Positions 18,897-22,052 of a stretch of 64,000 bases of DNA are shown one piece after another. This DNA comes from Mycoplasma suis str. Illinois (GTDB lineage: Bacteria > Bacillota_I > Bacilli_A > Mycoplasmatales > Mycoplasmoidaceae). The DNA lies in contig NC_015155.1 in assembly GCF_000179035.2 (NCBI RefSeq), positions 310,001-374,000 of the forward strand, written 5' to 3'. Made by a program: the position numbers and the translations under genes. Position 1 is the first letter of the stretch, and the number at the start of each line of letters is the position of its first letter. Under the pieces are notes generated by a model, which saw only the letters and a list, made by a program, of their open reading frames with translations, searched no databases and was not told the DNA's origin.

Positions 18897-20084
18897 ATGT
18901 CCAAGTGAGAGTGAGTTACTTTGGATAAATTAGGGAAATTCGAAACTGGAAGTCCATGAAAAGAAAAATATAGCATTCTTAATTTTCCAAATGAGCATAA
19001 AGGCATTCCTTTTGTGGATGGCGGAACAATTAGTCAAAGCAAATTTCACATTTCTGGAGATAAGTTCTACTCACAAAAATATCTTCCCCCTAATATAAAA
19101 ATTTTTCCCGAAGATACTGTTTGTTTTGTATGTGTCGGATCTTATCCCGGAGAATCAAGAATTTCAAAAACGAATGTTTGCGTTTCTAACAATATTTATG
19201 CTTTCAATTCCTTCAAAAATATTTCTGATCCTAAATTTTTTAAGTATTCTTTAGATTTTTCTGATATAAAGAAAAAAATTTTTATTTTTTCCGCAACCAC
19301 AACTCCTCGAAGAGCTTTAACTAAACATAAATTATTAACAATTAAATTTCCTTCGCCCCCCCCAGGACACAAAAGTTAATAGGAGATATTCTTTCAGCTT
19401 ATGATGAGCTTTTTGAGAATAACAAGAGACAAATTGAAATTCTTGAAAGAGTTAGAACACTAATTTATAAGAAGTGATTCGGAGAATTTTATAGAGATAA
19501 TGTCCCTCTTCCAGAGGGATGAAGATTTGAGAAACTTGAAAATTTAGTAACTATAAAAAGAGGGGAAGTTGCTGCGGGAGAGGAGATATCTTTAGTTGAA
19601 GCTAAAAACAAAATCACTTATCCATTTTTCACTTCTTCAAAAGATTCTCCAAAAATAATTGATAGATATTCTTACGATCAAACAGCAATATTGTTGACTA
19701 CTGCAAGATATTTTGTAGTAAATATATACAGGGGTAAATTTGAAGCCAGTGATGGTTGTTTAATTCTCTCTCTCTCTCTCTCTCTCTCTCAATTCTTGAG
19801 AGAAAGATTCTCTTATATATTTGATATCAGAAACAATCAAAAATTTTCTTCCTCTTTTGGGGGAGAAAGCTACAGGAACTAACTATAAGACATTAAAAAA
19901 AGAAAATATATACGGCCTAAGAGCTTTAATCCCAGATCAAAAAACTCTAGAAAAATTCAATTTAATTTGTGAAGATATTCAATTAAAGATTGAAAAACTA
20001 ACTAAGAAAATTGAAAATTCAGAAAAGATAAGGGAGAAGTTATTAGATAAGTTGTTTAGTCAAAAAGTAAAGATTTCTTTATAA
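18897..20084 (+). CDS. hsdS: Type I restriction specificity subunit 1, phase-variable (C8 and TC13)
   Basis: HsdS determines the DNA target of type I restriction-modification. ATG 18897 begins SKWEWVTLDKLGKFETGSPW, the family W-x-x-x-x-L-G start, then TRD1. At the conserved P-P-x-x-x-Q linker the prolines are encoded by C8 (19356-19363); as printed this stops at 19379 after about 160 residues. One more C opens the frame into KLIGDILSAYDELFENNK, then LPEGWRFEKL and TRD2. Within TRD2 (TC)13 (19765-19790) is again out of frame; one more TC joins to IKNFLPLLGEKATGTNYKTL and the end at 20084. Fully in frame it would be about 396 residues, normal for HsdS. Confidence 0.85.
19356..19363 (+). repeat. 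C8 tract switching hsdS1 between half and full subunit
   Basis: Eight C residues encode the Pro-Pro-Pro of the conserved TRD1-linker motif. C8 gives a truncated single-TRD protein; C9 (or C6) fuses it to the central helix and TRD2. Confidence 0.85.
19765..19790 (+). repeat. (TC)13 dinucleotide tract inside hsdS1 TRD2
   Basis: Thirteen TC units encode alternating Leu/Ser. With 13 units the upstream TRD2 frame runs into an unrelated tail and stops at 19880-19882. Fourteen units (or 11) connect it to the homologous C-terminus. A second independent switch within the same gene. Confidence 0.85.
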
Positions 20085-20186
20085 AAGTAGATAAAAGAAA
20101 AGAATTTTGTTAATAATTTTTTGAAAATTAAAAATTAATAAAATTTTTCTTTTCAAAAAAGCAATAAGAATTTAGTTATTCATTAA

Positions 20187-20783
20187 ATGACTTCTTTAAC
20201 AGCATTTTTAGGTGTTATGTTTCCTTGAACATTAAGTAATGGTGATATTACTATGTTTGCTTCTAATAAAGAAAAAACAACAGTAGAGTGCGAAGTTACA
20301 GATGATAAAACTTCTTTATCATCAACTAAAAAAATTTCCTCAAATAATTGCATTTCAGTTGAGGAATTTTTTAAAAAAGTAATAGAAATATTGGAAGATG
20401 AAAAACCAATTAAAAGGCGCAATATTGTTAGATTTCCCAGAATTTATAAAACACTTTGAGAATCTTTTGAATTTTCTAAAGGTAAAAAAGAATGTGCTCG
20501 AGCATCATGGGGTTTTCATGAGCAATTAAGAATAATAGAGAAGGGTTGTGCAGGATGAACAAAAAATATTTCTGTTGATGGAATTAAAAAAGATCCTAAT
20601 AAAGTTGTTCACTGAATAAGAGGAGAAAAGGTAGCAGTAACAAGGTATTTAAATAGATGAGGATTTTTAATGGGCAATTTAGAAGAAAAAGATGGAAAAA
20701 TGGATTGAAGAATGTATAAGACTCATTGTCATGGGAACTTTTTTAGACAGAGGGATCAAGTAGAAATAACTTGCGAAACCTAA
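20187..20783 (+). CDS. Hypothetical secreted protein, about 200 residues
   Basis: A 198-residue protein with a short hydrophobic N-terminus (TAFLGVMFPWTL) suited to export, followed by a soluble domain with Lys/Glu-rich and Trp-containing segments (CARASWGFHEQ, GCAGWTKNI, LNRWGFLMG) and several cysteines. No domain recognised. Short orphan proteins of this kind form large paralogous families in hemotropic mycoplasmas, so this may be one of them. It lies between two hsdS genes and has its own terminator-like hairpin downstream. ATG 20187 is the first start. Confidence 0.6.
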
Positions 20784-20813
20784 TTAATTATTAAATAAAA
20801 AATTAATTAAATT

Positions 20814-20829
20814 CCCCCTTTCTTGGGGG
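20814..20829 (+). terminator. Intrinsic terminator after the secreted orphan
   Basis: CCCCC-TTTCTT-GGGGG stem (part of a larger AATT...AATT pairing) followed by CTTAATTTTTT, 30 bp after the stop codon. Confidence 0.6.
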
Positions 20830-20875
20830 CTTAATTTTTTCTTTAAAAGTTAACTAAATATTTAATTAATAATTG

Positions 20876-22052
20876 ATGAGTGAAAAGTGAGAATGAGTTA
20901 CTTTGGATAAGTTGGGGAATATAGAGGCTGGCAGGCAAGCCTCTAAATTAGATAATTCACTTTTTGAAGGAGGAAACATCCCTTTAATAGGGGGAGAAGA
21001 AGTGTCAAAAAGTAGGTTTAGTGTTAACCCTGAAGTTAAAAAATTTTATAACTTGAAAGGATTGCGACAAAGTAAATTGTTTTCTAAAGGCAAAATTTTA
21101 TTCATTCGCTCCGGAAATTCAGCTGGAGATTCCTCTTTTCTAAATTTTGATTCCTGTTTAACTCAAAATCTTTATTCCTTTTCTTCCTTTAAGGAAATAT
21201 CTGATCCTAAATTTGTCAAATATTGTTTCAATTTCCAAAATTTAAAAACCAAATTAATCGTTTTATCTAAGTTACAAACAGCTCAACCAAATTTAACGCT
21301 TACAAAATTATTCCAAGTTAAGTTTCCTAAGCCCCCTCTAGATATTCAGCAAAAAATAGGAGAAATTCTTTCTAGATACGATTTAATTCTTGACAATAAT
21401 GAAAAACAAATTCAATTATTGAAGAATTTGAAAATATCTCTTTTTAAGGAATGATTTGTTAAGTTAAGGTTTCCTGATTATGAAAGTTACTCTATTCGGG
21501 GGGGAGTTACCTGAAGGCTGAAAGAGAGTCAAAATAGGAGAAATTTCAAAAATTCTTAAAGGAACTAAACCGGCAAATCACGCAAATTTATTGGGTGGAG
21601 GTGGAAAATATCCATTTTTTACCTCTTCTTTTACAACTAAAAGGTCTTACACCTTTTCATATGATTCATTTTCTTTGTTAGTTTCTGAAGGAGGAAGTAC
21701 TTTTCATGCAAAAATTTACAAAGGTAAATTTGAAGCTAGCAATCACACCTATGTAATTGATTTGGAAGAAAAAGAAAACACTTATTTAGTTTTGGAATTC
21801 TTAAATAATATTCATTTACCCAAATTAAATTGATTTACCTGCGCCACAACCTTCCTCAAGAATCTTTCTCCCCAGAAACTCAAAGAAATAGAAATCCTAA
21901 TTCCAGATCAAAAAATTCTCGAAAAATTCAATAATTTTTGGAAAAATATTCATTCCAAAATTGAGAAGTTGGAACTAAAAATGCAAAAATATGAAGAAAT
22001 TAAAAAGAAACTTTTGAATTCTCTTTTCTCTCAAGAAATTCAAGTCTATTAG
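20876..22052 (+). CDS. hsdS: Type I restriction specificity subunit 2, phase-variable (G7)
   Basis: Second HsdS, with a start almost identical to hsdS1 (EKWEWVTLDKLGNIEAG). TRD1 runs to FPKPPLDIQQKIGEIL, the conserved linker with an intact P-P-L-x-x-Q, then the central helix to LFKEWF. At 21498-21504 G7 breaks the frame and the printed reading stops at 21571-21573. One fewer G (or two more) leads into ELPEGWKRVKIGEISKIL, TRD2, and the terminal coiled-coil helix ending at 22052. In frame the protein would be about 391 residues. No hsdM or hsdR is in the window, so the partner subunits must be elsewhere or absent. Confidence 0.85.
21498..21504 (+). repeat. G7 tract switching hsdS2
   Basis: Seven G residues between the central conserved helix and TRD2. 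G7 gives a single-TRD protein; G6 or G9 gives the two-TRD subunit. Confidence 0.8.

Follow-up and report, generated by a model that had tools for sequence, protein, structure and literature searches.

The stretch of DNA analysed here, hereafter the window, comprises 64,000 nucleotides (positions 310001-374000) of the 742,431-bp, single-contig genome of Mycoplasma suis Illinois, and contains two orphan type I specificity genes in tandem on the plus strand, hsdS1 (window positions 18897..20084) and hsdS2 (20876..22052). Open reading frames (ORFs) were read with genetic code 4, in which TGA encodes Trp, and translated in three frames. Repeat tracts interrupt hsdS1 twice and hsdS2 once. In each gene two Methylase_S domains (TRDs; PF01420, above cut-off on both sides) and the conserved helices can be recognized. 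The first-pass annotation had called both genes hsdS and had placed three out-of-frame tracts in them, C8, (TC)13 and G7. Both points hold: the reading frame differs on either side of each tract, Methylase_S matches are found on both sides of the breaks, and the tracts are non-random and located where the frameshifts part the TRDs. Between the two genes lies a 198-aa ORF (20187..20783, plus strand) with no Pfam match, which is probably a species-specific paralogue outside the restriction–modification (R-M) system. Adjoining hsdS2 in convergent orientation is an intact C5 cytosine DNA methyltransferase gene (22100-23080, minus strand; PF00145, E 1.6e-113). Elsewhere in the window, the overlapping ORFs 12359-12997 and 12844-13518 resemble a single gene split by a frameshift where no repeat tract is present. 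A promoter scan returned 17 matches against 17.1 expected, which is the chance level. For comparison we used haemoplasma genomes of 564,395 bp, which we take to be M. parvum, 756,845 bp (presumably M. haemolamae), 650,228 bp (presumably M. wenyonii) and 702,511 bp (presumably M. ovis). In the putative M. parvum genome the genes that flank the window's locus are far apart, leaving no orthologous locus to compare.

The assembled hsdS1 falls into an N-terminal piece (18897-19379; PF01420, E 1.2e-4), a middle piece extending to 19882 (E 3e-5) and a C-terminal piece ending at 20084, all on the plus strand. The first break is at C8 (19356..19363, plus strand), in PPP codons just 5' of the central conserved helix region, which runs by motif positions from IGDILS to KKWF (19379..19480, plus strand) and would act as the dimerisation or spacer helix. 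Because the tract breaks the frame 23 nt before IGDILS, the 160-aa N-terminal product lacks this helix; as assembled, hsdS1 probably specifies TRD1 without the element for subunit pairing, a null product. The second break is at (TC)13 (19765..19790, plus strand), within TRD2. It is read as out of frame because the frame that immediately follows it, IYLISETIKNFLPLL, matches LYLLLETIIYSLPLF in TRD2 of a homologous copy at 670 kb, and the same match rules out an in-frame (TC)13 with the lesion lying instead at a G5 run near 19859. Over 225 nt, the centre of hsdS1 shares 91.6% identity with a copy at 215.5 kb (dN/dS 0.05 for the centre, 0.09 for the C-end), and its TRD1 is 78.9% identical over 578 nt to a copy at 657.5 kb.

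Matches to PF01420 are stronger in hsdS2 (N part, E 1.9e-18; C part, E 2.4e-12). Its central helix region, from IGEILS to KEWF (21356..21457 by motif positions, plus strand), is kept in the truncated product, since the only tract, G7 (21498..21504, plus strand; out of frame as assembled), is located at the entry to TRD2, 40 nt past KEWF. The resulting 228-aa protein aligns to residues 17-205 of the 1yf2 HsdS and to the HsdS of EcoR124II. The remaining C-half ORF (21480..22052, plus strand) encodes TRD2 and the second conserved helix, and has a possible ATG of its own upstream of G7. Over 880 nt hsdS2 is 80% identical to a copy at 519 kb (dN/dS 0.157 for the C-half), and over 773 nt it is 75% identical to one at 217.6 kb. 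An out-of-frame tract after TRD1 and the helix and before TRD2 is the layout of the NgoAV half-subunit; hsdS2 has it, but hsdS1 does not, because its C8 comes before the helix and its (TC)13 inside TRD2. The first-pass claim that both genes yield single-TRD half-subunits is thus borne out for hsdS2, the only one of the pair predicted to give a proper half-subunit, but has to be dropped for hsdS1. Its description of the two gene starts as near-identical was too strong, given 82% identity over 50 nt, and the recombination between them that it proposed on this basis is unproven.

Eleven recognisable hsdS copies, each carrying at least one tract, are present in the M. suis genome, at 215.5, 217.6, 328.9 and 330.9 (the window pair), 519 (minus strand), 657.5, 662, 663.5, 670, 671 and 675.7 kb. 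The tract-bearing design is a property of the whole hsdS family in M. suis and its sister species, extending beyond the two window genes. In the 675.7-kb copy the tracts are in frame and specify a full HsdS of 395 aa that matches 1yf2 at E 2e-23; its AlphaFold model is poor (pLDDT 40) and gives no structural support. Sequence comparison shows that TRDs have been shuffled between distant copies. A further C8 stands at the N-terminus of the copy at 657.5 kb (657516-657523; MQMPPPRWEWVTLDKLG); this position, the third type of switch site, could control the gene in its entirety.

The window contains neither hsdM nor hsdR, as had been reported, and the absence of hsdM from the entire genome, which the first-pass annotation had put forward as an argument against its model, is not what the search revealed. 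Two hsdM genes, both open, are present at 218.8-220.7 kb (620 aa) and 660.4-662.3 kb (613 aa), with PF02384 matches at 219.3 and 660.9 kb. Five HSDR_N matches, at 93, 221, 672, 678 and 682 kb, identify hsdR; three of the frames are longer than 1000 aa and another has 814 aa, and all four reach or surpass the TIGR00348 cut-off. An in-frame stop is found in the hsdR at 678 kb, and at least three intact hsdR remain. Just upstream of the hsdR at 677.5 kb, the one with an in-frame TAA, lies a C9 run (677467-677475), a possible intergenic switch beside a damaged gene. The 215.5/217.6-kb hsdS pair directly precedes hsdM and hsdR, and the window pair may be a dispersed relative of it that uses its HsdM. 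Subunits from the window would most likely share the HsdM/HsdR set encoded at 218.8-223.9 kb, whose own hsdS genes are the closest to hsdS1 and hsdS2 across the conserved regions.

Within the family the tracts recur at two sites. Site 1 is a poly-C run located 23-25 nt upstream of IG(D/E/N)xL, the motif with which the central helix begins; M. suis has C8-9 there in five copies and C5-6 in another three. Site 2, at or near the entry to TRD2, follows K(E/K)WF, the motif that closes the helix. It lies at +39/+40 nt in six copies, two with G7 and four with GA, and at +56 nt in two others (G8 and G10), hence at one of these distances in 8 of the 11 copies, and in the alignment the G and GA tracts occupy one and the same position. 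Three copies have a second tract within TRD2 (G8 at +123, G8 at +230, and the (TC)13 of hsdS1 at +284). In the putative M. parvum genome, five copies have C8 at site 1, and the tract at site 2 is G7, G8, GA6 or AT9-10 at +40 to +98. Lengths differ between the M. suis copies (7-10; GA 7, 11 and 12), and across both species the conserved sites hold G/C runs of 7-10, GA of 6-12 and AT of 9-10, mostly out of frame, each species being represented by one assembled consensus genome. Position is thus conserved while length and state vary between copies and species. That the type of repeat has changed and its place has been kept is not easily accounted for unless selection favours a slip site there.

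The tracts are non-random coding repeats whose unit is not a multiple of three. Words of at least G7 occur eight times in the window against 0.58 expected, a number reached in none of 100 shuffles, and (TC)10 is expected 0.00 times. Throughout the genome, GA/TC runs of at least seven units are found at no more than six loci, of which five are within hsdS genes (binomial P about 1e-8); the sixth, (AG)14 at 685457-685484, lies downstream of an hsdR, at a distance of a few hundred bases, and encodes (RE)n in the open frame of a small ORF. Runs of G or C number 36, 19, 93 and 59 at lengths of 6, 7, 8 and at least 9, respectively (cumulatively 207, 171, 152 and 59). Instead of declining as expected by chance, their lengths peak at 8, a pattern that sequencing error does not easily produce.

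These runs are a feature of the whole genome. The 152 of at least 8 are spread over 742 kb at a G+C content of about 31% (the window value), with examples in the window at 12142-12149 and 13534-13542, and many are found in regularly spaced arrays that resemble paralogue families, e.g. at 147-157 kb and 460-473 kb. In the putative M. haemolamae genome (74001-90000), G8/G9 or C8/C9 recurs about every 430 bp through a series of small genes, which suggests one tract per paralogue. The genome-wide set looks like a contingency system and may be more noteworthy than the hsdS tracts.

The reading that we favour, and consider very probable, is slipped-strand phase variation, in which changes in tract length would toggle hsdS between full, half and null forms. 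Replication slippage would alter the length of a tract. With site 1 out of frame, the product would be TRD1 without the helix, probably inactive; with site 1 in frame and site 2 out of frame, it would be a half-subunit of TRD1 and helix, able to pair with itself or with another half, and the paired halves would recognize a symmetrical or a hybrid bipartite site. Only with both sites in frame would a full HsdS with two TRDs be made. Sharing HsdM and HsdR encoded elsewhere, these subunits would allow both the methylation pattern and the specificity of restriction to change reversibly in the population. Against this model, nearly all copies have site 2 out of frame, and some of them could be permanently truncated.

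The alternative that survives best is itself a sub-case of the switching model: the half-subunit may be the normal working form, with site 2 kept out of frame, varied N-halves pairing with one another and full-length HsdS rare. Of the 19 scored tract-bearing copies in the two species, only one has site 2 in frame (P 0.005 relative to an expected one third), whereas site 1 tracts of at least 7 are in frame in seven of ten (Fisher P 0.0005 for the difference), although copies share flanks and a modal run length of 8, so that the frame states behind these P values are not independent draws. When the two full-length copies are excluded, site 1 is in frame in five of eight (P 0.09). The N-half is intact beyond KEWF in 8 of the 11 copies, and the half-subunit of NgoAV is active (PMC9577141). 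Yet the C-halves that are out of frame evolve under purifying selection (dN/dS 0.157, 0.272, 0.185 and 0.298 in four pairs), which means that they are used too. We regard a half-subunit default as possible and hold it tentatively, because the frame states of the copies are dependent. In the putative M. haemolamae genome, match phases worked by hand placed one of seven pairs in frame, the other six having one common offset, and this suggests a picture similar to that in M. suis.

Alternatively, expression might be limited to one gene at a time, the truncated copies serving as silent storage and a single full-length HsdS being on in the dominant clone. This explanation, which is compatible with tract switching, seems to us doubtful. 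Exactly one full-length hsdS ORF is present in M. suis (675.7 kb) and exactly one in the putative M. parvum genome, there adjoining hsdM, and TRDs common to several copies indicate shuffling; but a single full-length copy per genome is also near chance, and the mostly in-frame state of site 1 would be left unexplained.

Homopolymers, unlike GA/TC/AT runs, are prone to miscalling by 454 sequencing. This method was used for the published genome of the organism, whose authors were unsure whether its orphan hsd genes are functional (PMC3091866), and single tract lengths may indeed be misreads. Two M. suis copies, at 662 and 663 kb, have frameshifts outside the tracts, and in copies p4 and p10 of the putative M. 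parvum genome breaks also occur upstream of the helix. That all the interruptions are homopolymer errors or marks of decayed pseudogenes, with no switching, is nonetheless improbable. Dinucleotide tracts are out of frame as well, lesions lie mostly in the tracts (in M. suis, other frameshifts are confined to the two copies just mentioned), the tract sites are kept in another species, dN/dS on both sides of the breaks is 0.05-0.44 and mostly below 0.3, and the G/C run lengths peak at 8. The out-of-frame C-halves, in particular, are open with dN/dS of 0.16-0.30, which argues against both dead genes and sequencing error. Least probable of all, and very unlikely in our view, is that a single allele of fixed DNA length yields both kinds of subunit, half and full, by transcriptional or ribosomal slippage: a modal length of 8 across unlinked copies would suit a fixed slippery sequence, but GA, TC and AT dinucleotide runs, which are poor sites for transcriptional slippage, occupy the same sites, and lengths vary between copies.

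Slipped-strand switching could also be taken further than we have done above. In the line of M. suis and M. parvum, hsdS may have become a mix-and-match system, in which up to eight HsdS N-halves, several of them gated by poly-C, pair on a shared HsdM and give many symmetrical and hybrid targets at once, full-length HsdS being exceptional and the second tract tuned to the half form. This extension is speculative and, on balance, unlikely. Phase variation of hsdS as such would already equip a parasite of animals that cannot be cultured, and whose genome is small, with many DNA methylation patterns between which it could switch reversibly; gene regulation and the entry of foreign DNA might both be affected. 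From the layout with two sites, half-subunits are clearly predicted to produce symmetrical bipartite 6mA motifs.

Repeat tracts are reported in 7.9% of hsdS genes, and in M. pulmonis and Streptococcus pneumoniae several hsdS genes have exchangeable TRDs that alter specificity (PMC7394358). The latter systems switch by inversion or recombination at inverted repeats, whereas in the M. suis window the two copies are arranged as direct repeats and their identity is modest; compared with these recombining systems, the main switch in the window pair appears to be tract length. Among haemoplasmas, a review of 2014 gave the number of hsdS genes as 13 for M. suis and 22 for M. haemofelis and suggested on/off cycling (PMC3874165), and in 2011 inter- and intragenic tandem repeats were reported in the hsdS paralogues of M. 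haemofelis, with phase variation as a suggested consequence (PMC3196708). The passages retrieved from these two papers do not describe two conserved tract sites, a swap of repeat type at one site, or half-subunit and null outcomes, and a search of a limited set of papers turned up no account of a layout with two sites. The closest parallel is NgoAV of Neisseria gonorrhoeae, in which a poly-G tract in hsdS switches the product between a half and a full HsdS that differ in specificity (PMC9577141). As in M. suis, the tract lies between TRD1 with its helix and TRD2, the out-of-frame state giving an HsdS of ~200 aa and the in-frame state the full protein (PMC9577141, PMC6789123). NgoAV, however, is a single locus with hsdM and hsdR alongside, whereas M. 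suis has 11 scattered copies, including orphans far from hsdM and hsdR; it also differs from NgoAV in having a second, upstream poly-C switch and in the replacement of G by GA, TC or AT tracts in the same region. Switching in M. suis, and any effect that it has on methylation, are what we infer from sequence comparison. Both poly-G switching of HsdS and the multicopy hsdS of M. suis are already published, and the case described here is ordinary in kind but unusual in its extent and layout.
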